28,653 nucleotides of DNA from a virus (IMGVR_UViG_3300030098_004804:1-28653); one strand, 5' to 3'. Counted from the stretch's first letter, positions 772 through 25,838 are shown. Made by a program: numbers and translations. The notes: a model not told the origin generated them from the letters alone.

Positions 772-986
772 GTTGCCCTCTCTATTTTAGCATTATCAAG
801 TTTTATTTTGGTCAGGTCATAATCATTCAATGAGACAATTCCAGCAGGCAATAACATCCCCTGTTTGTCGTAGATTATTTTCATTCCAAATTGCTTAATT
901 AGCTTATTAGTTACTTCTTCTATTTGCCGATTATTGGCATATAGTGAGTTACACTTTTTAGTCGGTATTATATTATAATAATACAT
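765..986 (-). CDS. Hypothetical protein, 73 aa
   Basis: Two ATGs lie close together at 990-992 and 984-986. The second is preferred because the recurrent ribosome-binding site AACGGAGAAT would abut the first with no spacing, while the second has a normal gap. The product begins MYYYNIIPTKK, has a helical stretch near residues 20-34 and ends NAKIERATC. I recognise no family. It is the first gene after an internal promoter with two palindromic operator copies at 1004-1037, so this gene and those downstream can be transcribed independently of the genes to the right. Confidence 0.5.
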   Translation of the reverse strand: MYYYNIIPTKKCNSLYANNRQIEEVTNKLIKQFGMKIIYDKQGMLLPAGIVSLNDYDLTKIKLDNAKIERATC

Positions 987-1003
987 TGTCATTCTCCGTT
1001 GTT

Positions 1004-1037
1004 CTATATGTATAGCATAGTTCTATACATATAGCAA
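1004..1037 (-). promoter_or_regulatory. Leftward promoter with two operator copies
   Basis: Read on the minus strand, TTGCTA (1032-1037) is separated by 17 bases from TATACA (1009-1014). Two 12-bp sites, CTATATGTATAG (1004-1015) and CTATACATATAG (1023-1034), are exact reverse complements of each other, seven bases apart, and cover the -10 and -35 boxes. Both fit the CTAT-N4-ATAG palindrome seen at other promoters in this window. The -35 starts 51 bases from the downstream start codon, the same distance as at 14833. Repression by a dimeric HTH protein is inferred. Confidence 0.6.
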
Positions 1038-1522: not shown

Positions 1523-2365
1523 TCAATATCCATAAATCTTAAAGATTGTATCAATAGATTTATCAGATAATGATGCTTTATTCCATCCTGATTTGTTCTT
1601 TTGTTGCGATCTATTGCGCTTGTTATAGGCTTTTAAAACGTGCTCAGGACGCTCCCAGCCTATTTCCTTAGCTATCACTCTACCCATTGACGTAGCCCAT
1701 ATTTTGTGCTCCCAAATAGGGTAATAGTATCTCTGCCCGTCTTCATCTTTGATTCCAACGTAGCCGTGTTTGATACGATGCTCCCACATATCATCAGATT
1801 GATATGTGGCCCTAACCCGCCCTTCTATTTTTGCGCGTTTATCTCCTGCTTTGCATATTGTGCACTGTGGGCCGCAATAATGATCAATCCTTATCGTGGC
1901 GTTTTTATCAATAATCCTAATGTCTCTTATAGTTTCGAGCCAAGTCTTCCCACGGCCCACATGCGATTCACAATTAATATCATCACATCGTGCGGAAATT
2001 GTAAGATTTATATCTTTTTGCTCTTTTGGGCTGTAAAATCGCGCCCAAACAACTCTAAGACTTCCCTTTAATCCGTGATCATCTGTTCGACAATGCACAC
2101 AATATTGTTTTTTATCAGATAAATACCACTCAGGATCAAATCCTGATGTATTTCCAACAAACGCTTTGATTGTTGGTATAGTTGGGATTTTCTCACCAGC
2201 ATTATTTATAATAAAGTCTTCGAATGCGTTATTTAATCGCACAATCGGCACCTTTCGAAATAATGCCATGTACAAAGGCAACATATTATTAATGTAATAT
2301 CCGCCTTTGCCATACTGATCAGCAAGTCTTGATAAGAACCTTCGGCAAGTCACTTCTAAGTTCAT
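1523..2365 (-). CDS. Cys-rich replication-like protein (helicase-loader-like N-terminus?), 280 aa
   Basis: The start at 2363-2365 overlaps the upstream stop as ATGA and has AACGGAGAAT in front. Residues 5-70 are helical (RFLSRLADQYGKGGYY, then LYMALFRKVPIVRLNNAFED) and end in IPTIPTIKAF. This outline resembles the N-terminal domain of phage helicase loaders such as SPP1 gp39, but the match is by pattern only. Residues about 85-170 hold CVHC, CDDINC and CGPQCTIC clusters, which could bind one or two zinc ions. The C-terminus is basic. Position beside an annealing-protein candidate and a winged-helix gene supports a role in replication or recombination. A plain DNA-binding zinc protein is the alternative. 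Confidence 0.55.
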   Translation of the reverse strand: MNLEVTCRRFLSRLADQYGKGGYYINNMLPLYMALFRKVPIVRLNNAFEDFIINNAGEKIPTIPTIKAFVGNTSGFDPEWYLSDKKQYCVHCRTDDHGLKGSLRVVWARFYSPKEQKDINLTISARCDDINCESHVGRGKTWLETIRDIRIIDKNATIRIDHYCGPQCTICKAGDKRAKIEGRVRATYQSDDMWEHRIKHGYVGIKDEDGQRYYYPIWEHKIWATSMGRVIAKEIGWERPEHVLKAYNKRNRSQQKNKSGWNKASLSDKSIDTIFKIYGY

Positions 2366-2649
2366 TTTTCATTCTCCGTTTTTTCAATCAACGCATAAAA
2401 AGCTTTTTTCAATTTCATGTGTTCATGTAGTAAATTAAAAACTAAGTTTATTTTTTTATCTTTGATATGTTGTGTGTATATTTTGAATTCTTTATTTTGC
2501 ACATATCCAAATATATAATTTTTAGTTTTTCCTCTCTCCCAATTTGCTAGTGTTTTAACACTAACACCGAAACTTTGTGCCATATCATGGCGCGCTAAAT
2601 TTTTATCCACGCGATACCATATTAAGACATCTTTAAAATAGATTTTCAT
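2362..2649 (-). CDS. HTH (XRE/Cro-like) protein, 95 aa
   Basis: Residues about 8-40 contain a helix-turn-helix (LARHDMAQSFGVSVKTLANW, then ERGKT), with the WERG ending typical of XRE/Cro DNA-binding domains. The C-terminal half is helical and lysine-rich. The start has AACGGAGAATGAAAAATG, a variant of the recurrent ribosome-binding site, and the 3' end overlaps the next gene as ATGA. The ribosome-binding site of that next gene encodes the last residues of this protein. It is one of three HTH candidates that could bind the CTATGCGCATAG operators, and lacks an obvious operator of its own. Confidence 0.65.
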   Translation of the reverse strand: MKIYFKDVLIWYRVDKNLARHDMAQSFGVSVKTLANWERGKTKNYIFGYVQNKEFKIYTQHIKDKKINLVFNLLHEHMKLKKAFYALIEKTENEK

Positions 2650-2745
2650 TTTTCATTCTCCGTTGTTTTTAATGTTACACTGAATGCGGCGAGGGCGCAT
2701 GATATAAGTAATCGGCTTGATCTCCGTTTAAACCTCGCTTTTAAT

Positions 2746-3120
2746 CTACATTATTTCTTCATATGCTGTTAAGCCGCAGCCTGTATATATTCTCAAAGCG
2801 CGCACCATTGCACGAGTTGAGGCCATTCTCCTAAGATGTGGATGAATCATTCGCCCTGTGTTTTGTGGGCAAGCGTCGCCCTCATCCTCAAAAGTAACAT
2901 CAGTTAATTGGTTATGAATTAACTTTTTTCCTTTGACAACTGCTCTGAAAATAAAGTATCTCTCTTCCCAATTCTCTTTGACTGGGTGTGAAGTAATCGA
3001 CACTAAGCCATCTTGATGAGCTAGCCATAAAAGGCCCTTAAAGGTGATAAACTCTTTTCCTTGTCGGTCGATGATCCATCCTTGATCTCTTACATAATTA
3101 ATCTTTTGGTCATAAGTCAT
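2746..3120 (-). CDS. Putative single-strand annealing protein (Rad52/Sak-like family), 124 aa
   Basis: The start at 3118-3120 is fixed by AACGGAGAATAAAATG; the longer frame would run into the promoter. Residues 15-40 (IIDRQGKEFITFKGLLWLAH) and the C-terminal block GRMIHPHLRRMASTRAMVRA plus LRIYTGCGLTAYEEI match, from memory, a phage protein group whose members end with an A-TRA-RALR-(N)-G-TA-EE pattern and which is compared with Rad52-type annealing proteins. Such proteins bind single-stranded DNA and promote strand annealing during phage recombination. The protein is shorter than typical Rad52/Sak members (about 180-220 residues), so the assignment is tentative. It is transcribed from the operator-bearing promoter at 3152-3181. 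Confidence 0.5.
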   Translation of the reverse strand: MTYDQKINYVRDQGWIIDRQGKEFITFKGLLWLAHQDGLVSITSHPVKENWEERYFIFRAVVKGKKLIHNQLTDVTFEDEGDACPQNTGRMIHPHLRRMASTRAMVRALRIYTGCGLTAYEEIM

Positions 3121-3151
3121 TTTATTCTCCGTTGTTGTAATAACTAATTTA

Positions 3152-3181
3152 ACTGTATCATCTATGCGCATAGCTTGTCAA
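3152..3181 (-). promoter_or_regulatory. Leftward promoter with CTATGCGCATAG operator
   Basis: On the minus strand TTGACA (3176-3181), an 18-base spacer and TACAGT (3152-3157) form the promoter. The perfect 12-bp palindrome CTATGCGCATAG occupies 3162-3173 inside the spacer. The -35 lies 61 bases from the start codon at 3120. The leader, including AATTAGTTATT and AACAACGGAGAAT, is nearly the same as that at 8136-8196, so the two look like copies of one cassette. Confidence 0.8.
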
Positions 3182-5139: not shown

Positions 5140-6894
5140 ATGAGCGTACAAATTCGCGGTCGGCAAATAATGGATAGTACCATTACAGCCGCCAAACTCG
5201 TCCTTTCTGGCGATTTCGACTTCACCTCTGGCACTGTTTCAGTTGCCTCTCCATCATCAGCCAATCACGCCGCTTCAAAAAGCTATGTTGATTCAGCTAT
5301 TCAAGGCGTTACTTGGAAAGAGGCTGTGCGTGTTCGATCAACTGCAAATGTTAGTGTTTCAAGCGCTCCGGCAGCTATTGACGGCGTTACAATGGCATCG
5401 AATGATCGTGTTTTGCTTGTTGCTCAATCTACAGGAAGCGAAGACGGGATTTATGTTTATAATGGTAGCGGATCTGCAATGACAAGAGCAAGTGACGCCG
5501 ATCCTTACACTGAATTAGACGGTGCCGCTGTATTTGTAAAAGAAGGAACAAGTGCAGATGAGGGCTTTGTTCAAACGGCTTCTCTATCTGGATATGATGA
5601 TCAAGTTTGGGTCCAGTTCTCGGGCGCTGGAAATATCACTGCTGGCGAGGCTTTGGGCAAGGTAGGAAATATTTTAAATGTTCTCGTGGATGATTCTTCT
5701 ATCGAGATAAGCTCTGATGCACTCCGCATCAAATCGGGCGGTGTTTCAAATGCAATGCTTGCAAATAGCGCTGTTTCAATCGCTGGACAATCTATCTCTT
5801 TAGGTGGATCGATCACCGCCGACACAATCGCCGGACAAATTAGTGCAGGCACAATAACAAATGGACAACTAGCAGGATCTATAAGTCAAGATAAACTTGC
5901 AGGGTCAATTTCAAATGGAAAACTTGCGAATAGTTCTGTGTCTTTTGGCGGTGTTTCTGTTGCTCTTGGTGCTTCTGATGCGACTCCCGCATTCGATCTT
6001 AGTGATGCTACAAATTACCCGACAAGTTCTTTGTCTGGTACTATTACAAATGCACAACTAGCAGGATCTATAAAAGCCAGCAAATTACTTCTTGACAGTG
6101 TAAACTTTGAAGAAATTAGCGGTGGAGAAGATGATGGAAAATTGGCGCTTAAAGTTAATTCTGTAAGCAACGATCAACTTTCAGGAAGCATTGCAAATTC
6201 AAAACTTGCGAACAGCACTATTTCATTTGGTGGCGTATCTTTGGCCTTGGGTGCTTCGGACGCAACACCAGCATTTGATCTTTCCGATGCAACTGGCTAT
6301 CCTACTAGCTCATTGACTGGGACCATAACAAATGCGCAATTAGCAGGTAGTATACAAAATTCAAAACTTCAGAATAGCAGTGTATCATTCGGTGGTGTTT
6401 CTTTGGCCCTAGGTGCTTCGGACGCAACTCCGGCATTTGATCTTAGTGATGCAACTAATTATCCAACTAGCTCTTTGAGCGGCACAATAACAAATGCCCA
6501 ATTAGCTGGTAGCATTGCAGCAGGAAAATTATTACTTGATAGTGCAGTACTTGAGGCGGCTGGCAATGATCTTTCGATCAAAGCAGGCAGTATCGACAAT
6601 GCTTTATTAGTTGACGATACAATTGCAACTGCAAAACTTGGATATCAAGGATACTATGAATCATTCACAGCTAATGGATCAACTGCTGGATTTGATCTTG
6701 CTCGCGCAATAAAAGCAAATCTTGGACAGTCGTTTGTTGTAACAGTGAATGGTCTGGTAATGGATTACAAAGCCAGCCCTGATGCGAAAGACAACTTTAA
6801 AATCGATAATACTGGTGCAGGATCTGTCGGAAAAATTACTTTCGGCGCTAATCTTGATTCAGGCGATAAAGTTGCCATCAGATATGTAGCTTAA
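5140..6894 (+). CDS. Tail fibre protein with long repeats, 584 aa
   Basis: AGGAG lies seven bases before the ATG. Residues about 40-165 form an N-terminal module (AASKSYVDSAIQGVTWKEAV, DGVTMASNDRVLL, GIYVYNGSGSAMTRASDADP) of a kind widespread in fibres of aquatic phages. Residues about 215-470 consist of repeats built on NSKLANSSVSFGGVSLALG and GTITNAQLAGSI, including three nearly full copies. The last 80 residues (from YYESFTANGSTAGF) form a beta domain ending SGDKVAIRYVA. Fibres of this sort mediate adsorption. The gene lies on the opposite strand from the other tail genes and ends before a strong terminator at 6919. Host range is not readable from sequence. Confidence 0.85.
   Translation: MSVQIRGRQIMDSTITAAKLVLSGDFDFTSGTVSVASPSSANHAASKSYVDSAIQGVTWKEAVRVRSTANVSVSSAPAAIDGVTMASNDRVLLVAQSTGSEDGIYVYNGSGSAMTRASDADPYTELDGAAVFVKEGTSADEGFVQTASLSGYDDQVWVQFSGAGNITAGEALGKVGNILNVLVDDSSIEISSDALRIKSGGVSNAMLANSAVSIAGQSISLGGSITADTIAGQISAGTITNGQLAGSISQDKLAGSISNGKLANSSVSFGGVSVALGASDATPAFDLSDATNYPTSSLSGTITNAQLAGSIKASKLLLDSVNFEEISGGEDDGKLALKVNSVSNDQLSGSIANSKLANSTISFGGVSLALGASDATPAFDLSDATGYPTSSLTGTITNAQLAGSIQNSKLQNSSVSFGGVSLALGASDATPAFDLSDATNYPTSSLSGTITNAQLAGSIAAGKLLLDSAVLEAAGNDLSIKAGSIDNALLVDDTIATAKLGYQGYYESFTANGSTAGFDLARAIKANLGQSFVVTVNGLVMDYKASPDAKDNFKIDNTGAGSVGKITFGANLDSGDKVAIRYVA
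5917..6525 (+). repeat. Three imperfect in-frame repeats inside the fibre gene
   Basis: Copies begin near 5917, 6193 and 6355. Each covers about 160 bases and encodes about 54 residues (from KLANS or KLQNS through ASDATPAFDLSDAT to ITNAQLAGSI). The second and third are 162 bases apart in direct tandem; the first is separated from the second by an extra segment of about 38 residues. Third-position differences show they are not recent perfect copies. Such repeats can lengthen or shorten the fibre by recombination. Confidence 0.85.
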
Positions 6895-7134: not shown

Positions 7135-7222
7135 ATATCACCTTGATTATATAAAGTGATAGATACATAGATCCGGACAATGCTCCAAAGATTAAAAGAC
7201 TTTCAAAGATAGTTTTTAGCAT
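7127..7222 (-). CDS. Predicted single-helix membrane peptide, 31 aa
   Basis: The frame reads MLKTIFESLLIFGALSGSM and ends YLSLYIIKVIYV. It is hydrophobic almost throughout, with one likely membrane helix. Its ATG (7220-7222) lies in ATGCTAA, overlapping the preceding stop by three bases, and its own 3' end overlaps the next gene by eight bases, so translation could be coupled on both sides. It has no strong ribosome-binding site of its own. The length makes chance possible, but the double overlap and composition argue for a real small membrane protein. Role unknown. Confidence 0.4.
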   Translation of the reverse strand: MLKTIFESLLIFGALSGSMYLSLYIIKVIYV

Positions 7223-7542
7223 AGTTCAGCCCATCCCATATCAAAAAGATCTTGGGCTTTTATTAGAGTAAATAAATCTTTCTTGTCAACACCTGACAAG
7301 GAAGCAAATGACCCGTCTTTCCATTCGTCTTCAAACAAATCTTTTAAGCTATTAAGGAATTCAACTGTATATTCCTCAAGTATGTAATGCCATCCATACT
7401 GGCCAAATTCAACAACAACAATTAATTGTTTAAGTATTCGCATCTTTTCTTCTCTCGCATGAAAAGATTCAATCACTCCCAAAGGCGAAAGATTAAGATG
7501 ATCCTTATATGCTTCTAATTTCTTTAATAGTTCTTTTCGCAT
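7216..7542 (-). CDS. Hypothetical helical protein, 108 aa
   Basis: The recurrent AACGGAGAATAAAATG (7540-7555) fixes the start. The product is helical and acidic (MRKELLKKLEAYKDHLN, YILEEYTVEFLNSLKDLFED, LFTLIKAQDLFDMGWAELC) with no signal peptide or membrane segment. I recognise no family. It is the third gene of a leftward operon starting at the promoter 8168-8196, and its stop overlaps the start of the tiny membrane frame at 7127-7222. The ribosome-binding site overlaps the stop of the gene to its right. Confidence 0.6.
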   Translation of the reverse strand: MRKELLKKLEAYKDHLNLSPLGVIESFHAREEKMRILKQLIVVVEFGQYGWHYILEEYTVEFLNSLKDLFEDEWKDGSFASLSGVDKKDLFTLIKAQDLFDMGWAELC

Positions 7543-7553
7543 TTTATTCTCCG

Positions 7554-7847
7554 TTAAAATATATCTGTTTTTGATTTATTCTTAATAACTACGCCGTCAT
7601 AGCCTAAAGTCTTGTAGGCTGTGTCGAGATTGCATGGCTCTTGATATGCCATGACATCTGTTGTCATTTGGACACAGTAATTATAGAATTGAACTGTTGG
7701 TATTTCCATTCCTGATTGTTGCACAAGAACTTGAAACAGCAAATGCGCACATTCCCCAAATACTTTGTCATAGCGCTTCTGATTGCGGCACCATTTAAAA
7801 GGACAAATTTCATTGTTTACACGATCATATTCTTCGTTTTTAGTCAT
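7554..7847 (-). CDS. Hypothetical protein with several Cys, 97 aa
   Basis: The start follows AACGGAGAATAAAATG (7845-7860), a site that also encodes the last residues of the upstream gene. The product has five cysteines (ICPFKWC, GEC, YCVQM, EPC), enough for metal binding, although no clear zinc motif is formed. It contains a central helical segment (AHLLFQVLVQQSG) and ends in a basic KNKSKTDIF tail. No family recognised. It is in a series of small genes between the lysis genes and the fibre operon, a location where phages often carry accessory genes. Confidence 0.6.
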   Translation of the reverse strand: MTKNEEYDRVNNEICPFKWCRNQKRYDKVFGECAHLLFQVLVQQSGMEIPTVQFYNYCVQMTTDVMAYQEPCNLDTAYKTLGYDGVVIKNKSKTDIF

Positions 7848-7848
7848 T

Positions 7849-8136
7849 TTATTCTCCGTTTAATTTTGTTCGATTGGCGTGATAAATTGTATCTTCAAGG
7901 CACTCTTTATTGTGATGTGATATTTCGATTGGCTCCATCCAATCATCACTCGCAAGTGATATCTGGAAATATACTGGATCTGGATCATAACCATAATCCT
8001 GATGTATTGTGATTATTATGTATCTTTTTTGATTTTCATCATTGATAAATTCTTTAACATAAAAATCATCAGGGAATGCATAATGGGTTTTATATCCTGC
8101 AATTTCTAAGTCTTCGATTATTTCTTTTATAGTCAT
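7849..8136 (-). CDS. Hypothetical acidic protein, 95 aa
   Basis: The ATG at 8134-8136 follows AACGGAGAATAAAATG; the longer frame to 8196 would extend across the promoter. The product begins MTIKEIIEDLEIAGYKTHYA and has a likely beta sheet (KRYIIITIHQDYG, PVYFQISLASDDW) followed by a helix. It ends NGE, encoded by the ribosome-binding site of the next gene. It is acidic overall. No family recognised. It is the promoter-proximal gene of the operon, under the palindromic operator at 8177. Confidence 0.6.
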   Translation of the reverse strand: MTIKEIIEDLEIAGYKTHYAFPDDFYVKEFINDENQKRYIIITIHQDYGYDPDPVYFQISLASDDWMEPIEISHHNKECLEDTIYHANRTKLNGE

Positions 8137-8167
8137 TTTATTCTCCGTTGTTAAATAACTAATTACA

Positions 8168-8196
8168 TTATTAAATCTATGCGCATAGTTTGTCAA
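8168..8196 (-). promoter_or_regulatory. Leftward promoter with CTATGCGCATAG operator
   Basis: On the minus strand TTGACA (8191-8196), 17 bases and TAATAA (8168-8173) form a near-consensus promoter. The perfect palindrome CTATGCGCATAG (8177-8188) lies in the spacer. The -35 starts 60 bases from the ATG at 8136. The leader shares AATTAGTTATT and AACAACGGAGAAT with the promoter at 3152-3181. Confidence 0.85.
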
Positions 8197-8216
8197 GAGT
8201 TATTTAATAAAAAATG

Positions 8217-8245
8217 AAAAAAGGAGGGCCTGACTAGGACCCTCC
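8217..8245 (-). terminator. Terminator of the late operon
   Basis: On the minus strand GGAGGG, an inner stem CCT-AGTC-AGG with one bulged base, and CCCTCC form a strong hairpin followed by six T. It ends the lysis and tail operon, and insulates it from the small-gene promoter about 20 bases further left. Confidence 0.85.
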
Positions 8246-8283
8246 CCAACGAAGAATGCGATTATTACCGCCCATTTAGAGTA

Positions 8284-8697
8284 TCACATTTGTGGCGGCG
8301 GTGCAATTCCATTGCCGTTAATTTGAGATCGTGCAATTTCTCTCAACTTCAACTCTTGCACGATTTCGGCGAGGCTTTGCAATTTATTAGCTAGCTCATC
8401 CACTTTTTTTTCTACCTGTGAGATTTGTGTATCTAATTTAGATATTTCCATCACTATTGATTCCCTAATCTTTTCTTCTTTATCTTGATACATTTTAATT
8501 ACATCGTCATATCTAGCTCTTAAGGCTGTTTGATCATTTTCATATCTTTCTCTAAGCTTATCCTCTCTCTCTTCTGACCGTTTATCTCGTGCATCAAGGC
8601 GTTTTTGCTGGTAAAAGAATTGCCATAATAAAAACCCAGCAAAAGCAGCATTCGCGCCGCCGTTGACAAGTAATTCTATCAGTTGAGCCTCACCCAT
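8284..8697 (-). CDS. Holin-like membrane protein with coiled coil (BhlA/UviB-like layout), 137 aa
   Basis: Residues about 12-30 (GANAAFAGFLLWQFFYQQKR) form a single membrane helix. A long charged coiled coil follows (residues about 31-120, rich in Glu, Lys, Arg and Asp), and the tail is NGNGIAPPPQM. A short N-terminus, one helix and a coiled coil is the layout of BhlA/UviB-type holins, although this protein is longer than typical members (about 70-90 residues). A spanin-like part is an alternative. The start overlaps the lysin stop as TAATG, so lysin and this protein are co-translated, which supports a lysis role. It is the last gene of the late operon. Confidence 0.65.
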   Translation of the reverse strand: MGEAQLIELLVNGGANAAFAGFLLWQFFYQQKRLDARDKRSEEREDKLRERYENDQTALRARYDDVIKMYQDKEEKIRESIVMEISKLDTQISQVEKKVDELANKLQSLAEIVQELKLREIARSQINGNGIAPPPQM

Positions 8698-9296
8698 TAC
8701 AGCCCCAATATCAGCGTATATGTAAATGTTCTATAATTATTTGTTTGTATTTGCATTTTACATAATTTAATGAATTCTTCGAAATCATCCTCATTTTGTA
8801 ATACAGTGCATCCTGCACTCCACTTTCCGACCTCAACGCTATTTTTTCCGGCTTTATGGATATTAATTCCAAAATACCCAGTGTCAATATCGCCCATCAT
8901 ATCATGTATATGATCACGATTTCGATCACGCCATACATCGACAGGCCCGTTGCGCTGGCAGAGCGCCTCATATCGTGATTTGTGCAGATCAATAGAGTAC
9001 ACGCCGCGCATTTGTTGCGGGTGACATAGAATAGCAGTACCGCACGGCATATTATAGTTTTTCAGGTAGTACATGCCGGCGTCAGTAGTGCAGGCATAGG
9101 CATGCCAATTCCAAATGCCTCTGACTTTGTATATTACATGTATCCAATCGTCAAATTGATCAGCCTTTCCGCGTGGATTTCGCTCACCGATAATATTCAG
9201 ATCATAATCGTGCCCTGAATCAAATACTACAAAGCCATGTGCCTCAACTCTGTCGAGTATTTCGGGCCTCTCGCCATTTTCCTGAAAAACTCTCAT
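8697..9296 (-). CDS. Endolysin candidate, L,D-transpeptidase (YkuD)-like cysteine active site, 199 aa
   Basis: The ATG at 9294-9296 is chosen because it overlaps the upstream stop as ATGA and has AGGAG ten bases upstream. The C-terminal half contains GINIHKAG (H147) and KWSAGCTV (S160, G162, C163). A histidine followed about 13-16 residues later by S/T-x-GC is the catalytic pattern of YkuD-fold enzymes, and a phage branch with this pattern is thought to degrade peptidoglycan. There is no signal peptide, so it would need a holin for access to the wall, and a holin candidate follows at once. The N-terminal half contains HVIYKVRGIWNWHAYACTTD and likely forms the rest of the fold. An activity other than lysis, such as wall entry from the tail tip, cannot be excluded. 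Confidence 0.75.
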   Translation of the reverse strand: MRVFQENGERPEILDRVEAHGFVVFDSGHDYDLNIIGERNPRGKADQFDDWIHVIYKVRGIWNWHAYACTTDAGMYYLKNYNMPCGTAILCHPQQMRGVYSIDLHKSRYEALCQRNGPVDVWRDRNRDHIHDMMGDIDTGYFGINIHKAGKNSVEVGKWSAGCTVLQNEDDFEEFIKLCKMQIQTNNYRTFTYTLILGL

Positions 9297-10843
9297 TTCG
9301 ACAAAACTCCTATTGTTAATATACATCGTGATCTATTAGGTAGCCAGCGATTCCCCAAGATCATTCCTCTTCTGCCAAGATATGTTTTTCCTGATGCCTC
9401 TTTAAATCCATATATATATCTCGATGTGATGCCAACAATATCACCAGCAACAAGACCCGCAAATCGCTCATGCACAGCTATCACTAATTCCTCATAGGTG
9501 TATTGATCCCAGGGCGCTAATCTAGCCAAATCAACAGCCGCTTTGCCTGATTGCGTCGGGCTATCTATACGATAGATTAATTTATGATCTCTTATAATCT
9601 CGTCATTAGCTGGCAAGGCTTTAACATTTGTTACATTAACTCCTGTTTTTGTTATAGTGCCTGATGAAGATGAAGTTTCGATAGTACTTTCCGCATAGAC
9701 TACAGATTGAGACGGAGCATAAATGTTATGTGATTCAATATTAATTATATCACGATCTTTAATTCTGCCTGATATCGTTGTATTCAATGCTTCTTCTGGA
9801 TCTTGACAGACACGCCATGATATTTGCCCTTGTCGAAATACTGGCCACATTCCCAAAGATAAAAATTGATTTAATAAATATCTGATTCCGCTTGCTTCTG
9901 GAGCGTCTAAAACTAATTGCACCTCATGCGATCCGGTTTGTGTTTTATATGCCTCATACCACAAATTCATATCCTGAGTATTTATCAGATTTGGATTAAA
10001 TCTAATTCCGGCGCCCCAAGATTTGGGATAATCATCTAAAGATCCTTGTGTAGCGCTTCCAGTGCTCATTAAAGTTCGAGCAAATACATTGTGAGGCTTC
10101 CCTTGTAATCTAGTAAGACTTATAACTTTATCGCCAACAGCTAGAGCGTTTAAGTTTGCAGTAGCTGGCCAATGTCCTGTATCAGTTATAGTAAGATAGC
10201 CTGCTGATCCCGTCGTTGTAGTTTTTCCGCTCCATCGATAGTAGCTTGTATTATTTGATCCATCAGTAACAAAACAAAGTCCGTCAAAATTACTATCTTT
10301 TTCAAATTTAGTTATATCATCTAAATACAATCTATTAGCAGGCGCAGATCCAAAATTAAAAGCATGTCCGGTTGTAACCTGCGTTTCAGTTCCAGCATTA
10401 TAATAAAAGTTTAGCTCATCCTTTTTTGTGCTTAATCGAGTAGTGAGAGCAGATATAAAATCGCCAAATTGCAATCTCCAAACACCGCGACCGCCTTCTA
10501 AGGATCGCAATTGTCCAATAGCTATTCTTTGAGGAATATTACCATCACGCATCATAAACAATTCCGCCAAGGCACCGCGACGAAACGCGCTAACATCGAT
10601 CGGCCTTAAATCGCCGTTGATAGTCAATGAAAATCCGCCAAAATTAACTGACCATCTTTGTGGGGTCACTCTTGCATTGTCAATAACAACTTCCGCCGCG
10701 CCAATGTTTATTAATCCGCTTTGCCGAATTGTTTGTCCGGCACCTAAAAAATAATCATTTGTATGACCAAGAAAACGTAAAGCAAATTCTAAAGATTTGC
10801 TAGGCATATCTAATGATTTAATGAATCCATTGCTCCAAGTCAT
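9293..10843 (-). CDS. Tail tip/baseplate-type protein, 516 aa
   Basis: This large beta-rich protein follows the tape measure and one further tail protein, in the place where siphoviruses encode tail tip or hub components. The N-terminus (LEFALRFLGHTNDYFLGAG) and the middle (WRLQFGDFISALTTRLSTK) contain many strands. Residues about 300-360 (VQLVLDAPEASGIRYLLNQF, MWPVFRQGQISWRV) resemble the hub region of tail proteins. The C-terminus has GDIVGITSRYIYG and RCILTIGV. No transmembrane or enzymatic motif is visible. The start overlaps the upstream stop as TAATG, and the stop overlaps the lysin start. Function is inferred mainly from gene order. Confidence 0.7.
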   Translation of the reverse strand: MTWSNGFIKSLDMPSKSLEFALRFLGHTNDYFLGAGQTIRQSGLINIGAAEVVIDNARVTPQRWSVNFGGFSLTINGDLRPIDVSAFRRGALAELFMMRDGNIPQRIAIGQLRSLEGGRGVWRLQFGDFISALTTRLSTKKDELNFYYNAGTETQVTTGHAFNFGSAPANRLYLDDITKFEKDSNFDGLCFVTDGSNNTSYYRWSGKTTTTGSAGYLTITDTGHWPATANLNALAVGDKVISLTRLQGKPHNVFARTLMSTGSATQGSLDDYPKSWGAGIRFNPNLINTQDMNLWYEAYKTQTGSHEVQLVLDAPEASGIRYLLNQFLSLGMWPVFRQGQISWRVCQDPEEALNTTISGRIKDRDIINIESHNIYAPSQSVVYAESTIETSSSSGTITKTGVNVTNVKALPANDEIIRDHKLIYRIDSPTQSGKAAVDLARLAPWDQYTYEELVIAVHERFAGLVAGDIVGITSRYIYGFKEASGKTYLGRRGMILGNRWLPNRSRCILTIGVLSK

Positions 10844-11727
10844 TAGTCAATATCCCAAGTACCAGATCCATCGCCAAATTTGGCGGGTAATTCGATGTCT
10901 GCTGGCATCTCTAAATCAATTCTACCCCCTGAGAATTTTGGCAATACACCGTCAATGCCTGAATCATTTCTTCCATCTGGGATCGTGCCCGTTGCCTCTG
11001 GTTCAGTCGATAGCAATCCGCCCACATTAACAACGCCGTCATAGTTTTCTGGATGAAATCCAAATAATGTATGATAATCAGGCACAAGACGAATAGACAA
11101 TGAAAACAATCTGCCGCCCTCATTTGTGATAATGTTTTGGCCTATATCTGCATTGATCCTTTTCAAAACCGGCCATGTTCTGTAGTGCCTAACATAAGCG
11201 CGGCGATTGTACTGAAAATTAATTCTTTTGTCAACTGTTAATGATCCGCCGGTGCTCGATAGATTTGATACTGACGCGATTTTATGCATTTCCTGTAGTT
11301 GTGCAGGTGGCGCACTCTCGACAACAACATAATCATCAACGGCGGGTATATTTGTTCCTAGATAATTAGAAAAAGGATTGGCAAATACATTTATATTAAA
11401 CGATCCTGACGAAAGATAATTATGAATTGGCGCGGCCCATGCTTTTGTGTGATCAGCGGTGAATCCTACACTGAATCCCCTATCAAGATGATTTTGCATT
11501 GCCATCATTTGATAAGCTATATCCTCGCCTAATTTTAATCGATCGCGTTGAATAGTTATTATTTCGCCCATGCGAGTTACTGATCTTTGTATTGATCCGT
11601 CAATACCAATACCATCAACAGCGTCAACAATAAATTCAGAAAATAACTCTCCTAAATCCTCACCTAAATCAATAGTGACGGGAAAATTGCCTTTCGGCTG
11701 TGGGTAATAGAAAAACTTAGCTGACAT
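10843..11727 (-). CDS. Distal tail-type protein, 294 aa
   Basis: The start has GGAGG eight bases upstream and lies one base from the tape measure stop. The protein begins MSAKFFYYPQPKGNFPVTID and has beta-rich segments, including GEIITIQRDRL, SFNINVFANPF and RLFSLSIRLVPDYHTLFGF. It contains a glycine-rich C-terminal stretch. By position directly after the tape measure it should be the distal tail or adaptor protein joining the tube to the tip. Sequence alone gives no specific family. The C-terminal segment (GSGTWDID) has no obvious membrane or catalytic feature. Confidence 0.65.
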   Translation of the reverse strand: MSAKFFYYPQPKGNFPVTIDLGEDLGELFSEFIVDAVDGIGIDGSIQRSVTRMGEIITIQRDRLKLGEDIAYQMMAMQNHLDRGFSVGFTADHTKAWAAPIHNYLSSGSFNINVFANPFSNYLGTNIPAVDDYVVVESAPPAQLQEMHKIASVSNLSSTGGSLTVDKRINFQYNRRAYVRHYRTWPVLKRINADIGQNIITNEGGRLFSLSIRLVPDYHTLFGFHPENYDGVVNVGGLLSTEPEATGTIPDGRNDSGIDGVLPKFSGGRIDLEMPADIELPAKFGDGSGTWDID

Positions 11728-11728
11728 A

Positions 11729-13927
11729 TCATCTACCTCCGAACAAATTCGAAGAGGATAATCCGAAGTTGCTGTTAAATCGCTCTTCTATGCGCCGAAC
11801 TAATGCATCAACGGCGTTTTGTTCGACTACTGGGCTATTGATAACTATATTAATTGGGGAGCCACTAGAGCGCGACATTTGGCGATCTACTGTTTGCGGC
11901 CTCATTCCTGACTGTGGCACAACAAATTCGCCTTGATGCAATAAAGCAAGCCCTGATCTTTTTGATCCTGTATATCGCATTCCGCCTTCGGCTTTTGGTA
12001 TAAAATGACCGCCTCCCGCAAATGCGGCCGATTCATTTGGATCAAAGAAATCTCGGAGAAATCCGCTATTGGCTTCTCTTCTTTCCTGTCGGCCCTCACG
12101 CGTAAAAACCAATCTTAATGATTCACGCAATATGTCTCCAAAACTTTGTAATGCTAATACAAATCCATCAACAATAGCCTCAGCAATAGCAAGTGCAAAT
12201 TGTGGTAATACTTGAAGTAAAATCTCAGGCAAGAATTCAAGTCCCTTCTTCATTGATTCAGCCTGTTGTCTAAGATCTTTTCGTCTTTCATCAGGTGTTT
12301 TTTGGCCTATTTTCGCAAGCCCTTTTCCGATTGCGCCAAGTGCAAGTGTAGCGGCGCCGATTATTGGAATTGCACTTGCAACAGTGCCTAAAACTTTTCC
12401 AGCCGAGGAAGAAATGTTGCCAATTCCTTGTAAGCTACTAGATATTGTTTTTCCTAGTCCATCACCTAAAACACTCAATAAAGCGCCGGCTCCTGATGTT
12501 AATTGTTTACTCACTACTAATCCAAATTTTGTACCTAATTCAAGCAATCCTTTTAATGTTGGCGCAGCGGCAATAGCGGCAACTCCTTTTAATGTGCTTT
12601 CGATTTGTTTTTGTTGCTCTTTTTTTCTTTGCTCTTCTATTTCTTTTTCTTTTTGCGCTTGTTCTTCAAGTAAACGTAATTTTCTTTCTCTAAGTAGAAT
12701 TTCTGCTTGTTGTGCTTTTTCTATTTCACCTGACTTTTCCGCTAAATCAAAAACTATATTTAATTCTTGATTATATTGCTCAATAATTTTTTCGCGTCCT
12801 TTTAACTCAGAAATAGTCAGTTTATTAATTATAGATTGCAATCTTTTTGCTGCGTTTTGTTGTGCTCGCTGTTCTTTTTCTCTTTGTGCTGTTATTTTTG
12901 TGAAATTTCTTTCATTTTCAAGGCGCTCTTTATTTTCTTTATTAATTTTAGCTGTTTCTTCTAAAGTTAATCTTAATTCTCTTTGTTGTGAGTTTATTTC
13001 TCTTTTTTGTTGTTTTTGTGATTCTAGCGTTTGATTAATTTGCTCTAAAGTTTGTTCTCTCAAATTGTTTTGTACTATTAATCGCCGTGTCTCTTCATCA
13101 AGTTGATCATTTGTTAATTTAGCACCAGCGGCCCTTTCAGCGGCACTAATTTGTTGTTTATTTTGTATTTGTGTTTGTTGGTTTATAATTATGTTGTTTT
13201 GTTTAATTTCTGCTTCTAGTGCTGATTTTGACTGCTCAGTCGCACTAATTCTTTGATCAATTTGCATTTGAAGACTTCTTCCAAATTTCTCTGAAGTTTC
13301 CCTTGCATTCTGCATAGCTACATCAAAAGATGATAACTCACCTGTAAGCAGCATCAAATCAGTTTTTGCATCAGTTAAGGATTGTATATATCCAGCAATA
13401 GCAGAACTTGTTTTTTTGGTTACATCTTCTTGTTTCTGTAATGCTTCATTTGTATTTTCAGCGGCCTCAGCTAGCAATTTAGACTGTTCTTCTGCTTTTT
13501 GTTTTGAATTTGTGAAAACTGTGAATGCGGCGCCGGCTGTTAATGTAATTGTTGCAACTGCCCCTAAAACAGGATTTAATCCAGTTAATAAAATACGCCC
13601 TAGACCATCGGCGACACTAGCTCCATTTGACATGGTCATTAATAAACTGCCCATTGCTGGGCTGACTAAATTCGCACCTTGTGCCATGTCCATTAAAGCG
13701 CCGTCAAGATCTCTACCTGCTCGTCTCAAATTTCGCGCACTTGAAGTTGTGCTTTTTAATTGTTTCTCTGTAGTCTTTAATTTAGTACTCATTTCAGAGG
13801 CAGAATTGCCCATACTCTCAAAAGCCTCGCCTGTCATTTTGGCGTCTCTAGCAGTCTCTTTAAGGCCTTTCTCTGCTTTGTCAGTGTCAACATTCAGGAT
13901 ATATTGTACTATTGTCTCATTGGGCAT
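11729..13927 (-). CDS. Tail tape measure protein, 732 aa
   Basis: This is the longest gene of the tail module and follows the assembly chaperones, as expected. Residues 1-80 are helical. Two hydrophobic segments occur near 90-140 (AVATITLTAGAAFTVF) and 445-540 (GLLELGTKFGLVVSKQLTSG, AIPIIGAATLALGAIGKG). Residues about 200-440 are a Gln/Glu/Lys-rich coiled coil. The C-terminal part includes AFAGGGHFIP, LLHQGEFVVPQSG and PINIVINSPVV, patterns common in tape measure ends. Tape measures set tail length at roughly 0.15 nm per residue, which would predict a tail near 110 nm. AGGAG with seven-base spacing precedes the ATG. Confidence 0.9.
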   Translation of the reverse strand: MPNETIVQYILNVDTDKAEKGLKETARDAKMTGEAFESMGNSASEMSTKLKTTEKQLKSTTSSARNLRRAGRDLDGALMDMAQGANLVSPAMGSLLMTMSNGASVADGLGRILLTGLNPVLGAVATITLTAGAAFTVFTNSKQKAEEQSKLLAEAAENTNEALQKQEDVTKKTSSAIAGYIQSLTDAKTDLMLLTGELSSFDVAMQNARETSEKFGRSLQMQIDQRISATEQSKSALEAEIKQNNIIINQQTQIQNKQQISAAERAAGAKLTNDQLDEETRRLIVQNNLREQTLEQINQTLESQKQQKREINSQQRELRLTLEETAKINKENKERLENERNFTKITAQREKEQRAQQNAAKRLQSIINKLTISELKGREKIIEQYNQELNIVFDLAEKSGEIEKAQQAEILLRERKLRLLEEQAQKEKEIEEQRKKEQQKQIESTLKGVAAIAAAPTLKGLLELGTKFGLVVSKQLTSGAGALLSVLGDGLGKTISSSLQGIGNISSSAGKVLGTVASAIPIIGAATLALGAIGKGLAKIGQKTPDERRKDLRQQAESMKKGLEFLPEILLQVLPQFALAIAEAIVDGFVLALQSFGDILRESLRLVFTREGRQERREANSGFLRDFFDPNESAAFAGGGHFIPKAEGGMRYTGSKRSGLALLHQGEFVVPQSGMRPQTVDRQMSRSSGSPINIVINSPVVEQNAVDALVRRIEERFNSNFGLSSSNLFGGR

Positions 13928-13983
13928 AATGCGCTCCTATATCTAGATAATAGCACGATCCAAACTGATATACTATACGATTA

Positions 13984-14226
13984 TTATCCAATCAAATCAA
14001 TGAAATCCATTAAAGATATATTCGGCACAAGTGCGCTGTTTTTCTTTTGCGATTTTAAAACGTTATTCATTCGGGTGCTTCTGGCTTTAATACATCGTAC
14101 ACAAAGCATTAATTCATACCAGTCTAATTTCACTATTTCACTTGGCAAAGTGCCATATGTGCGCGCTATTATGTCAATTAGGTTCAAATAATCTTCATCC
14201 TGTGCGAAACATGCTAAGTTTTTCAA
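13984..14226 (-). CDS. Tail assembly chaperone, second frame (frameshift product or TTG start), 80 aa
   Basis: The open frame begins after a TGA at 14245-14247 and contains no early ATG. It starts with TTG at 14224-14226 if translated alone, three bases after AGGGAGG, or it is reached by a ribosomal frameshift from the upstream chaperone gene, which ends at 14195. The product (IIARTYGTLPSEIVKLDWYE and later NISLMDFIDLIG) has the pattern of the second half of siphovirus chaperone pairs, which in many phages is made as a fusion by frameshifting. The frame relation requires +1 or -2. It lies just before the tape measure gene, exactly where such pairs sit. Confidence 0.75.
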   Translation of the reverse strand: MKNLACFAQDEDYLNLIDIIARTYGTLPSEIVKLDWYELMLCVRCIKARSTRMNNVLKSQKKNSALVPNISLMDFIDLIG

Positions 14227-14713
14227 CAGCCTCCCTATGACCCGTCATTGCCTGATTTAATATTTCAGTGCGATCGCTCGCTGATAGCATCCCAACCCAA
14301 AGAAAATTCCTATCTGAGTTCTGCTCTTCTTGATGTAGTACTATTTTCAATTCTTCCCAAGTCTGGCCGTCGTCCATAGAAGCGTCCTTAATAACCTGAC
14401 ATATAATCTTATTCTGCTGATCTGCTATTGATTTTAGCTGATTTGGCTTTAATTTGGATAAGAATTTATACGCTTCATCAAGCGCCTCATTAGTGACATC
14501 GCCTTTTGTTAATTGCTCAGAAAGATCCCGCAGTCCGCCGACACTCTTTCCCTCTTGGTTGACGATCTGCGAGATCAGAAGTGTTGAATTCAGCGAGGCC
14601 GCTTCTGATTCAGATGGGGATAATAGACGGCCGCGAATTAAGATTTGTCCGTCAAAGATTTTCACAGAAAAAAGCGAATTCTTTTCCGCTTGCTTTATAA
14701 AGTCTTTTAGCAT
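14195..14713 (-). CDS. Tail assembly chaperone, first frame, 172 aa
   Basis: The start at 14711-14713 is preceded by CGGAGAAT, a close relative of the recurrent ribosome-binding site. The protein is helical and charged, with QTWEELKIVLHQEEQNSD and FLWVGMLSASDRTEILNQAM near its end. Position between the tail tube gene and the tape measure identifies it as the gpG-like chaperone that coats the tape measure during tail assembly. Its 3' end overlaps the second chaperone frame by 32 bases (50 to the preceding stop), a typical frameshift arrangement. Three unrelated plus-strand genes separate it from the tube gene. Confidence 0.75.
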   Translation of the reverse strand: MLKDFIKQAEKNSLFSVKIFDGQILIRGRLLSPSESEAASLNSTLLISQIVNQEGKSVGGLRDLSEQLTKGDVTNEALDEAYKFLSKLKPNQLKSIADQQNKIICQVIKDASMDDGQTWEELKIVLHQEEQNSDRNFLWVGMLSASDRTEILNQAMTGHREAVEKLSMFRTG

Positions 14714-14832
14714 GCATTCTCCGATATTGTCTTTTTAATGTATCACGTTGATATAATAATGGCTTAGATAATTTTTATTATATCTATTCTTCCGATTAAA
14801 TCGTAACCTTTGAAATTTGTATAAAATACTTG

Positions 14833-14862
14833 TTGACAGGTATACGCATAGTATAGTAGATT
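14833..14862 (+). promoter_or_regulatory. Rightward promoter with operator variant, for the inserted small genes
   Basis: TTGACA (14833-14838) is followed after 18 bases by TAGATT (14857-14862). GTATACGCATAG (14840-14851), a one-sided variant of the CTATGCGCATAG palindrome, lies in the spacer. The -35 starts 51 bases from the ATG at 14884, and the leader ends in AACGGAGAAT. The -10 is weak; TATAGT at 14852-14857 would have too short a spacer. Confidence 0.65.
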
Positions 14863-14883
14863 GTATTTACAACGGAGAATAAA

Positions 14884-15189
14884 ATGACTAACAAAAAAAG
14901 ACTACATCAAAGAAGAGTTAAAATCATCTCATATTTGTATCATAATGATCAAATAGAACTTGCAAAGCAAATGAAAAACATAAGAACTGAAATTGGTTGT
15001 GTAACACATTTTCAAATTAACAATAGTTTTTTTGGATGCAGGCAAATCTACACAGCAAAAACAACAACAAATATCGAAGAAGTAACTTGTTCAAATTGCA
15101 TCAATTTAATCAGAAAAACTGCAAAAACAGCGGTTTTTCGCAAACATCCAACAACTCAAAAACTTTTAGTAAAATTCAACGGAGAATAA
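14884..15189 (+). CDS. Hypothetical basic protein, 101 aa (inserted cargo gene 1)
   Basis: The start is fixed by AACGGAGAATAAAATG. The product is strongly basic (MTNKKRLHQRRVKIISYLYH) with helices early on and a CSNC pair near residue 80, plus two further cysteines (GCVTHF, GCRQIY), so a four-cysteine zinc site is possible. It ends NGE, encoded by the next gene's ribosome-binding site. It lies on the opposite strand in the middle of the tail operon, between the chaperones and the tube gene, with its own promoter: the definition of a moron. Function unknown. Confidence 0.6.
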   Translation: MTNKKRLHQRRVKIISYLYHNDQIELAKQMKNIRTEIGCVTHFQINNSFFGCRQIYTAKTTTNIEEVTCSNCINLIRKTAKTAVFRKHPTTQKLLVKFNGE

Positions 15190-15190
15190 A

Positions 15191-15466
15191 ATGATCTATA
15201 TAATAATTGAATGGGATCTTTATGTAATGATGTTAGAACATAGCATTTATACAAACAAAAAAGCATATATACAACATTTGAAAATATGTGAGCAAATGTT
15301 CCAATTTAGCTCAAAATCTTATTTTGGCGGTTATCGTTATAGAACAAAGATCGTCAAATGGTCTCCTGTCAAAGCTATTTTTGTTGAAAACTTTAATGAC
15401 TATGACAATCCATTGTTAAAAGCACAAACAGAATTAGAAGAAACAATTAACAATAGTGGAGAATAA
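15191..15466 (+). CDS. Hypothetical protein, 91 aa (inserted cargo gene 2)
   Basis: AACGGAGAATAAAATG at 15178-15193 fixes the start; its TAA is the stop of the previous gene. The protein is rich in Tyr, Ile and Lys (MIYIIIEWDLYVMMLEHS, FGGYRYRTKIVKW), probably a small alpha/beta domain with an acidic C-terminus (LEETINNSGE). It has no membrane segment long enough to be convincing. No family recognised. It is the middle gene of the three-gene plus-strand insertion. Confidence 0.6.
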   Translation: MIYIIIEWDLYVMMLEHSIYTNKKAYIQHLKICEQMFQFSSKSYFGGYRYRTKIVKWSPVKAIFVENFNDYDNPLLKAQTELEETINNSGE

Positions 15467-15468
15467 AA

Positions 15469-15735
15469 ATGTCTTTTACTTTTTCATACAGCAAAATTGC
15501 AAAAGTACAATTTTCAAATGAGAATGACACTTTTACGCTTAAAGTTGGCGATCGTGTTTCTACACCTGAAATTTCTGGTGTTATTATTGAGATAAGAAAA
15601 AACGGTAAAGGTGTTTGGGGAAATAGCAGATATTTCTTTCACATTTTTGTTGAAGGACCATCTCCAAAATCATCTTTAACACTACATACAGGCGATTATC
15701 ATTACATTAATAGTGATGATTTAATTACTACATGA
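15469..15735 (+). CDS. Hypothetical beta-barrel-like protein, 88 aa (inserted cargo gene 3)
   Basis: GTGGAGAATAAAAATG, a variant of the recurrent site, gives the start. Residues about 20-60 (DTFTLKVGDRVSTPEISGVI, then YFFHIFVEG) alternate strand and turn and include the GDRV entry typical of small SH3-like barrels. The C-terminus is THTGDYHYINSDDLITT in outline. The last 34 bases overlap, tail to tail, the C-terminal end of the small minus-strand gene at 15702-15872. No terminator is visible after it, so its transcript would run antisense into the tail tube gene. Confidence 0.6.
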   Translation: MSFTFSYSKIAKVQFSNENDTFTLKVGDRVSTPEISGVIIEIRKNGKGVWGNSRYFFHIFVEGPSPKSSLTLHTGDYHYINSDDLITT

Positions 15736-22258: not shown

Positions 22259-22288
22259 TTGACATTATATCTATGCGCATAGTATAAT
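22259..22288 (+). promoter_or_regulatory. Rightward promoter with CTATGCGCATAG operator, upstream of the HTH gene
   Basis: TTGACA (22259-22264), an 18-base spacer and TATAAT (22283-22288) form a consensus promoter. The palindrome CTATGCGCATAG (22271-22282) lies at the end of the spacer and abuts the -10. The -35 starts 61 bases from the ATG at 22320, and the leader ends with AACAACAACGGAGAAT. Control of an HTH gene by the operator suggests autoregulation. Confidence 0.85.
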
Positions 22289-22319
22289 AATAGAGTAAAC
22301 AACAACAACGGAGAATAAA

Positions 22320-22757
22320 ATGCTTAATAAAGAAGAGTTTAAAAAGTTGCGATTACAATATGCATACAGCCAAAAAGATTTCGGCTATCTCTTAAATAGG
22401 TCTCAAAAGACGATTTCACAATGGGAGGCTGGAAAGCAGCCCCGATTGCTAGAATTAAAGCAGCTAGCTATTAAACTAGCTCAAAAATATAATGTAGAGG
22501 TTGCATGCAAAGTAACTTCGATCGATCGTGATGAAGTTGCAAGATTAAGCGGAATATCTTTACCAAAACCAACAAAAGAAGACGAAATAATTGTAGTCAC
22601 GTTTAAGAGCGGCCAAAAAATGGCAATGTTTAAAGATGCCGATGCTCTTGAAACGATAATAGATGATTTTGATTATATAGAAGAGATAGAAAGGATCGCA
22701 CTAGGAAAAAGATTTGTCGATTTTGGTTGCAATCGTGCAGTTACTCTTATAAGGTGA
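22320..22757 (+). CDS. XRE-family HTH regulator, candidate repressor, 145 aa
   Basis: AACGGAGAATAAAATG fixes the start. Residues about 5-45 are an XRE/Cro-type HTH (LRLQYAYSQKDFGYLLNRSQ, then KTISQWEAGKQPR), the best such match in the window. Residues 60-145 (DEIIVVTFKSGQKMAMFKDA and LETIIDDFDYIEEIERIALG) probably form a dimerisation or ligand domain. No RecA-cleavage (Ser/Lys peptidase) domain is visible, so it is not a CI/LexA-type self-cleaving repressor. It stands alone between an operator-bearing promoter and a strong terminator, as an autoregulated master regulator would. Binding to CTATGCGCATAG is a hypothesis. Confidence 0.8.
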   Translation: MLNKEEFKKLRLQYAYSQKDFGYLLNRSQKTISQWEAGKQPRLLELKQLAIKLAQKYNVEVACKVTSIDRDEVARLSGISLPKPTKEDEIIVVTFKSGQKMAMFKDADALETIIDDFDYIEEIERIALGKRFVDFGCNRAVTLIR

Positions 22758-22811: not shown

Positions 22812-22840
22812 TCGACATGATCTTTGGAATTGGGTATTAT
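22812..22840 (+). promoter_or_regulatory. Portal gene promoter
   Basis: TCGACA (22812-22817), 17 bases and TATTAT (22835-22840) match sigma-70 boxes well. It lies right after the terminator, 19 bases before the portal ATG. There is no CTAT-N4-ATAG palindrome, so the portal would be controlled differently from the gene to its left. Confidence 0.6.
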
Positions 22841-22858
22841 ACTAATATCGAGGTGATC

Positions 22859-25512: not shown

Positions 25513-25540
25513 TTGCTTACTATGCGTATAGTGTTAATAT
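25513..25540 (+). promoter_or_regulatory. Rightward promoter with CTATGCGTATAG operator
   Basis: TTGCTT (25513-25518), 16 bases and TAATAT (25535-25540) form a promoter 59 bases before the ATG at 25572. CTATGCGTATAG (25520-25531) lies in the spacer. A second, half-matching copy (CTATGCGTATTA) occurs at 25457-25468. The rest of the 202-base gap between the portal and the next gene shows an AT-rich stretch but no terminator hairpin that I trust. Confidence 0.7.
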
Positions 25541-25571
25541 TAAGTGTAAGGAAAAACCAACGGAGTACAAA

Positions 25572-25838
25572 ATGACTAAAGAAGAAATGACTAATGACCT
25601 AAGAAGAGCCTACACAAAAGAGATTGCTAAAATTACTGACTTTCGATGCTATTGGAGAAACTTCGGCAGCGATTCATTTGGATACGAACAAAACAGAGAT
25701 GGAACACTCTTGATTTATATTGAAACAGACCGCCTTAACGATGTACTTGCAATGTTTAGTGGAGACGAAGACATAGAATGGAATGAAAGCACAATGACAA
25801 AAGACACCCACACTGTAAAAGTAACATTTAAACGATAA
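25572..25838 (+). CDS. Hypothetical acidic protein, 88 aa (cargo gene)
   Basis: The start follows AACGGAGTACAAAATG, a two-base variant of the recurrent site. The product opens with a helix (MTKEEMTNDLRRAYTKEIAK), continues with ITDFRCYWRNFGSDSFGY, has a strand GTLLIYIET, and ends HTVKVTFKR: alpha then beta. No family recognised. It has its own operator-bearing promoter and lies between the portal and terminase units, convergent with the HTH gene at 25858, only 19 bases apart. It is therefore another moron-like unit, of the same design as that at 14884. Confidence 0.6.
   Translation: MTKEEMTNDLRRAYTKEIAKITDFRCYWRNFGSDSFGYEQNRDGTLLIYIETDRLNDVLAMFSGDEDIEWNESTMTKDTHTVKVTFKR

Follow-up and report, generated by a model that had tools for sequence, protein, structure and literature searches.

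A repeated start-codon leader of small non-structural genes in a family of uncultured bacterial viruses, with a probable role in translation and a possible one in gene exchange

We analysed a stretch of 28,653 bases from an uncultured bacterial virus (IMG/VR record IMGVR_UViG_3300030098_004804; hereafter the window), which carries portal, terminase, capsid, protease and tail-type genes together with a gene for a DnaQ-like exonuclease. Portal and MuF-type head protein are joined in one 850-aa fusion (22817-25369), represented by two reading frames in three relatives (L129, L132 and L135). The head protease has a glutamate-rich low-complexity tail (EEEEMQEEEEEMQ; 21011-21229), and a tail-type protein (5140-6894) contains internal repeats (LALGASDATPAFDLSDA and similar). 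The terminase gene (26126-27583) lacks a clear Shine-Dalgarno (S-D) sequence at its start, as do its counterparts in most of 51 relatives, and initiation may require coupling to the gene before it. No close cultured relative was found, portal and terminase matching cultured phages only distantly.

Directly upstream of 12 gene starts in the window lies AACGGAGAATAA or a close variant of it, which we refer to as the leader (Table 1). These starts are 992/986, 2365, 2649, 3120, 7542, 7847 and 8136 on the minus strand and 14884, 15191, 15469, 22320 and 25572 on the plus strand; a looser, thirteenth leader-like start is found at 14713 on the minus strand. The initial annotation had estimated that about 13 starts, mostly of small genes, carry a near-identical site, and our count agrees with this. 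There are seven exact copies of AACGGAGAATAA and three of AACGGAGAATGA, and nearly all copies lie at starts. With up to two mismatches to AACGGAGAATAA allowed, the window contains 19 matches where 3.7 are expected, a number reached by none of 100 shuffles. The three plus-strand genes within 14871-15735 form a moron-like cassette inside a minus-strand head/tail block and have a promoter, an operator-like site and leaders of their own. Two relatives (L169, 11728-12133; L145, 954-1344) carry a single-gene cassette of 400 nt, including its own leader, where the window has gene 25572-25838; it lies between the portal-side and the terminase-side genes and is absent from L173 and L148.

Table 1 Leaders, operator-like sites and associated genes in the window, and leader versions of other lineages
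Feature	Position or locus	Strand	Remark
Leader AACGGAGAATGACAATG of gene 765-986/992	984..1000	-	First ATG overlaps site; second (986) matches spacing in relatives
Perfect 12-bp inverted repeat CTATATGTATAG/CTATACATATAG, 7-nt spacer	1004..1034	.	Operator-like; just upstream of 984..1000 leader
280-aa gene, function unassigned	1523..2365	-	Orthologues leader-bearing in 8/8 scored relatives
Leader between 2362-2649 and 1523-2365	2363..2380	-	TGA stop of upstream gene overlaps start
Leader of HTH gene 2362-2649	2647..2664	-	
Leader of gene 2746-3120	3118..3133	-	
Operator-like palindrome CTATGCGCATAG	3162..3173	.	In TTGACA/TACAGT promoter spacer
Leader of 7216-7542	7540..7555	-	Stop of 7554-7847 overlaps first bases of leader
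Leader of 7554-7847	7845..7860	-	In-frame NGE-stop at end of 7849-8136
Leader of 7849-8136	8134..8149	-	
Operator-like palindrome	8177..8188	.	In promoter of 8136-7216 run
Operator-like TATACGCATAG	14841..14851	.	In promoter of 14884-15735 run
Leader of 14884-15189	14871..14886	+	
Leader of 15191-15466	15178..15193	+	In-frame NGE-stop at end of 14884-15189
Variant leader AGTGGAGAATAAAAATG of 15469-15735	15455..15471	+	SGE-stop at end of 15191-15466
Operator-like palindrome	22271..22282	.	In consensus TTGACA-18-TATAAT promoter
Leader of HTH regulator gene 22320-22757	22307..22322	+	
HTH_3 (Cro/C1-type) regulator	22320..22757	+	Pfam HTH_3 2.6e-6; phrog_3 transcriptional repressor 3e-6
Operator-like CTATGCGTATAG	25520..25531	.	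Upstream of 25572
Variant leader AACGGAGTACAAAATG of single-gene cassette 25572-25838	25559..25574	+	
Lineage leader ACAACGGAGCA	L176, L186, L191		Repeated before own small genes
Lineage leader ACAACAGGAGC	L211		Repeated before own small genes
Lineage leader AACAAAGGACAA	L264, L285		Repeated before own small genes
Lineage leader ataagaacaaaacaACAAAGGAGCACAAA	L257		Repeated before own small genes
Lineage leader GAGGTGTAAA	L222		Repeated before own small genes
Lineage leader ACAGGACAC	L233		Repeated before own small genes
Lineage leader AAACGGAGTAA	L193		Repeated before own small genes

Conservation of the leader goes beyond the S-D core. When starts were aligned at GGAG, the flanks (AAC before and AATAAA after) held 1.1-1.8 bits per column at leader starts, whereas the same columns held about 0 bits at 11 other GGAG starts of the window. 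Predicted RNA structure was weaker around leader starts (mean MFE -1.9 vs -5.6 kcal/mol, P = 2e-4, a comparison into which base composition was not factored), consistent with the A/C-rich make-up of the leaders.

The leader is restricted by gene class. It precedes none of the 19 structural-type starts of the window but 12 of the 26 others (Fisher P = 4e-4, with the genes divided according to our own annotation). The structural genes use other start sites, mostly of the AGGAG type, just as had been claimed from the sequence at the outset. Among relatives, a leader-type site was found ahead of 0/51 terminase, 0/28 portal, 0/52 protease and 0/11 tape measure genes. A loose regular-expression match precedes the major capsid gene in 12 of 49 relatives, these matches including a true AACGGAGAATAA in one clade (L257 and L263). 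Sharing of the site by structural genes of relatives, which the initial annotation would have taken as a sign of an ordinary ribosome-binding site, is therefore not the rule, although it does occur at the major capsid gene of that clade. The 12 downstream genes of the window are mutually non-paralogous (best E 0.04), and gene duplication as the source of the identical leaders was rejected on this ground.

Several leaders coincide with the end of the gene upstream. Three gene ends had been described as reading through the site in frame to an NGE or SGE stop, and all three translations bear this out: 7849-8136 ends in LNGE-stop, 14884-15189 in FNGE-stop and 15191-15466 in NSGE-stop. Two further junctions, said to end in another frame inside the site, also proved as described, since the TAA that ends 7554-7847 overlaps the first AA of the site, and gene 2362-2649 passes through its site in another frame to stop at a TGA overlapping the next ATG. 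Among 26 upstream genes that run into the site, 20 end in the AAC-GGA-GAA frame, although some of the 20 reflect chance or a capsid junction. This frame contains TAA in the window version and, in AACGGAGAACAACAATGA, a TGA overlapping the next start; in the remaining frames the upstream reading usually continues into the next gene or becomes fused with it. In runs of tightly packed genes, a gene extends into the leader of its neighbour and stops there, and NGE(QQ)-stop is the usual ending because the AAC-GGA-GAA frame normally supplies the stop, from the leader or from its ATGA overlap. For the same reason the NNGE(QQ)-stop tail, which recurs in L129, L169 and L173, requires no function of its own, and we rejected a functional C-terminal tag as needless. 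The coincidence is most plausibly a by-product of the position of the stop in the leader. It had also been suggested that the junctions reflect selection for tight coupling. Several of them do have the upstream stop 1-5 nt before the next ATG or overlapping it, but only 5 of the 12 copies touch or abut an upstream gene and the other 7 do not, such that coupling is not general and is not the primary explanation.

Five leader-bearing runs start with a sigma-70-type promoter region in which CTATGCGCATAG or a one-base variant lies just after the -35 element (palindromes at 3162, 8177, 14841, 22271 and 25520). The promoters of the runs are of the TTGAC type or weaker, with a ATGCGCAT-type palindrome in the spacer of TTGACA-type promoters, and ATGCGCAT or ATGCGCA occurs within promoters of six relatives (L129, L134, L136, L173, L252 and L253). 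Because the palindrome at up to two mismatches is not rare in itself (20 matches vs 11 expected), the argument for it is one of position within promoters. The HTH gene at 22320-22757, which is under one such promoter, is from its sequence a candidate to encode the protein that binds the palindromes, in which case these runs may be under repressor control. No such promoter precedes the run-internal leaders, suggesting that they act in translation.

Scans with portal, terminase and capsid proteins yielded about 145 loci, of which 99, totalling 1.15 Mb, were kept after removal of duplicates; simple rules for ORFs, together with regular expressions, served to call starts, and the leader classes were set up once the sequences had been inspected. 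CAACAACGGAGAAYAAMAATG is common to near relatives of the window. Across the roughly 100 related loci, lineages each have their own fixed leader (CGGAGAA, CGGAGCA, ACAACAGGAG, AACAAAGGA or GAGGTGTAA), repeated before their own small genes. In all eight relatives scored for an orthologue of the 280-aa gene (1523-2365; no match in a Pfam search), the leader of that gene is the version of its own genome, and the same is true of homologues of 2746-3120 in L211 and L222. Since orthologues carry the version of their own genome, and the downstream genes of the window are unrelated to each other, the leader is tied to the genome and the gene class and not to particular genes. A search for relatives of the small gene 7849-8136 found none. 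The exact 16-mer proved a poor marker of the family, as it mostly gives single matches in many viral contigs; among the loci read, family proteins accompany it only in L042 and L079. A further lineage, L208, has ggagggcacaatcaATGAGGAAacaATG repeated before several genes near 2017-2756, and a 54-nt repeat between neighbouring starts. The sole genome match was a 28-kb phage contig that had been binned into a Verrucomicrobiales MAG although its GC deviates, and it was not accepted as evidence of the host.

Comparison of close relatives suggests how leaders and gene content are connected. L173 and L169 are 87-93% identical around the small genes. Where L173 has a single leader, L169 has two with an additional gene between them, while L173 has another extra gene one position further and a third before the next block; leader copies flank each of these three whole-gene differences among L173, L169 and L148. 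One gene is absent in each of two further pairs, L265/L267 and L287/L143, and in both short alleles, sequence flanking the first leader on the left is joined to sequence flanking the second on the right, leaving readable chimeric junctions. Of the clean differences by a single insert, 38 in all, five are bounded by direct repeats of 13 nt or longer, and in every case the repeat is a leader. The expected number is 0.13 for random positions and 1.3 for gene boundaries, giving a boundary-matched P of about 0.01 for five events that are not independent, three of them coming from one group of relatives. Whole genes thus appear to be gained and lost by crossovers inside repeated leaders. The earlier proposal that the junction is a recombination point for exchanging cassettes holds in so far as five indels, two of them chimeric, are bounded by the leader of their own lineage; the statistical support is modest, and such exchange is not the primary explanation of the site.

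In T4-type phages, PeSL promoter-terminator cassettes are repeated regulatory elements at gene edges, which Arbiol and colleagues in 2010 and Comeau and colleagues in 2014 reportedly proposed as mediators of modular shuffling; they combine an early promoter with a stem-loop terminator and are not translation leaders. Phage mosaicism has been attributed to homologous exchange at short conserved gene-boundary sequences, and in the Island3/Brujita comparison the gene inserted in Island3 has the same 18 C-terminal residues as the gene upstream of it (PMC3029335). Neither case involves start leaders repeated throughout a genome (PMC3029335).

Cluster K mycobacteriophages carry 11-19 copies of SAS, a short asymmetric repeat with an S-D core (described in 2011, PMC3203893; Adephagia, PMC11373665). 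SAS and the window leader are alike in lying a few nucleotides before the ATG of unrelated non-structural genes and in being conserved past the rRNA-pairing bases (PMC3203893, PMC11373665), and upstream stop codons may lie within SAS as well (PMC3203893). Considered as a functional class of more than ten short asymmetric repeats a few nucleotides before ATG, SAS has its counterpart in the 12 leader starts of the window, where the genes are likewise non-structural and of differing families and conservation extends outside the bases that pair with 16S rRNA. Upstream of about half of the SAS copies lies an inverted repeat that includes a -35/-10 promoter (ESAS; PMC3203893, PMC11373665), an arrangement matched by the five promoter-led runs and the inverted repeat at 1004-1034, although the geometry differs, with 17-bp repeats in cluster K and palindromes in the window. 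The inverted-repeat consensus of cluster K varies between subclusters (PMC3203893, PMC11373665) and the SAS consensus is common to K1-K3, whereas in the window family it is the leader itself that changes by lineage. Genes with SAS tend to be separated from the preceding gene by more than 50 bp, as a trend and not a strict rule; in contrast, window leaders frequently adjoin or overlap the preceding gene, whose last residues they encode. SAS is unrelated in sequence (GGGATAGGAGCCC) and the phages are not closely related; the likeness is a functional parallel and not homology. The window family departs from SAS in that leaders are replaced lineage by lineage, frequently form the end of the preceding gene, and bound genes that are gained or lost. 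Citrobacter phage Mordin, of the Felix O1 group, is reported in the passage that describes it to have a 26-bp SAS-like repeat, CCAACAATCCTAAACTGGAGAATCTA, before eight hypothetical or novel genes (PMC4611695). This repeat is also C/A-rich upstream of GGAG, but it is longer and belongs to another phage group, and that passage contains no operator or indel evidence (PMC4611695).

We consider it likely that the site serves a regulon of small non-structural phage genes as their translation-start leader, comparable to SAS, and that its repeats double as a seam for gene exchange. Each copy supplies a GGAG core 6-8 nt from the ATG within an A/C-rich stretch of little predicted structure (AACAAC-GGAG-AATAAA), with a presumed effect on translation strength. 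The first copy of a run usually follows a sigma-70-type promoter with an operator-like palindrome, and run-internal copies would allow ribosomes to re-initiate, or to initiate independently, on one and the same mRNA; expression of the regulon is presumed to be early. Copies are kept alike within a genome and, from one lineage to another, change as a set. As the copies are repeats of 13-30 nt at gene edges, the leader would also be a seam for small-gene turnover: recombination between two copies would add or remove one gene cleanly and leave the start intact. The opposite order of importance, in which leaders are kept alike as cassette-exchange sites and homogenised by exchange, ribosome binding being secondary, would account for the flanked gene differences of L173/L169/L148, for the chimeric short alleles of the two other pairs, and for five repeat-bounded indels against 1.3 expected at gene boundaries. 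However, such a repeat is missing from 33 of the 38 clean indels, P reaches only 0.01 against the boundary-matched null with events that are not independent, and the copies are correctly spaced from the ATG, as selection for translation predicts. We regard this alternative as unlikely; leader-bounded exchange may be a consequence of the repeats and not their purpose.

Conservation outside the region pairing with the anti-S-D, and set-wise change between lineages, would also be expected if a phage-encoded RNA-binding protein or small RNA bound the leader and switched the whole set translationally, the lineage versions having co-evolved with the factor; the same argument has been made for mycobacteriophage SAS (PMC3203893). 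Against this, no candidate RNA-binding gene was identified, and an unstructured leader would need A/C-rich flanks equally, which together leave a trans-acting factor distinctly unlikely. It is similarly improbable that every lineage has a protein or RNA factor of its own for its leader version and so runs a private translation programme, with the leader as both translational address and cassette joint; an incoming gene would then join the programme by recombining into a leader. That the site is simply the best start for this host, an ordinary host-type ribosome-binding site, seems very improbable to us: its GGAG core is normal and at a normal distance, and many viral contigs contain a single exact 16-mer, but other GGAG starts of the same genome have no such flanks and structural genes have no leader. 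In addition, in the one MAG that contains a relative, the leader of that relative was found at 0/120 MAG genes, although this MAG is a doubtful host (GC 57% vs 41%). The leader may nonetheless bear some likeness to strong start sites of the true host.

The role of SAS has been open since 2011, and the window family, read as having a translation-start leader of small non-structural genes, provides an independent and widespread case with set-wise variation between lineages. Gene gain and loss is visible at nucleotide resolution inside the repeat, and orthologous genes follow the set of their genome. These properties make two ideas testable, namely that the small genes may share a common translation programme, and that phages may gain and lose small genes without damage to the start of the next.
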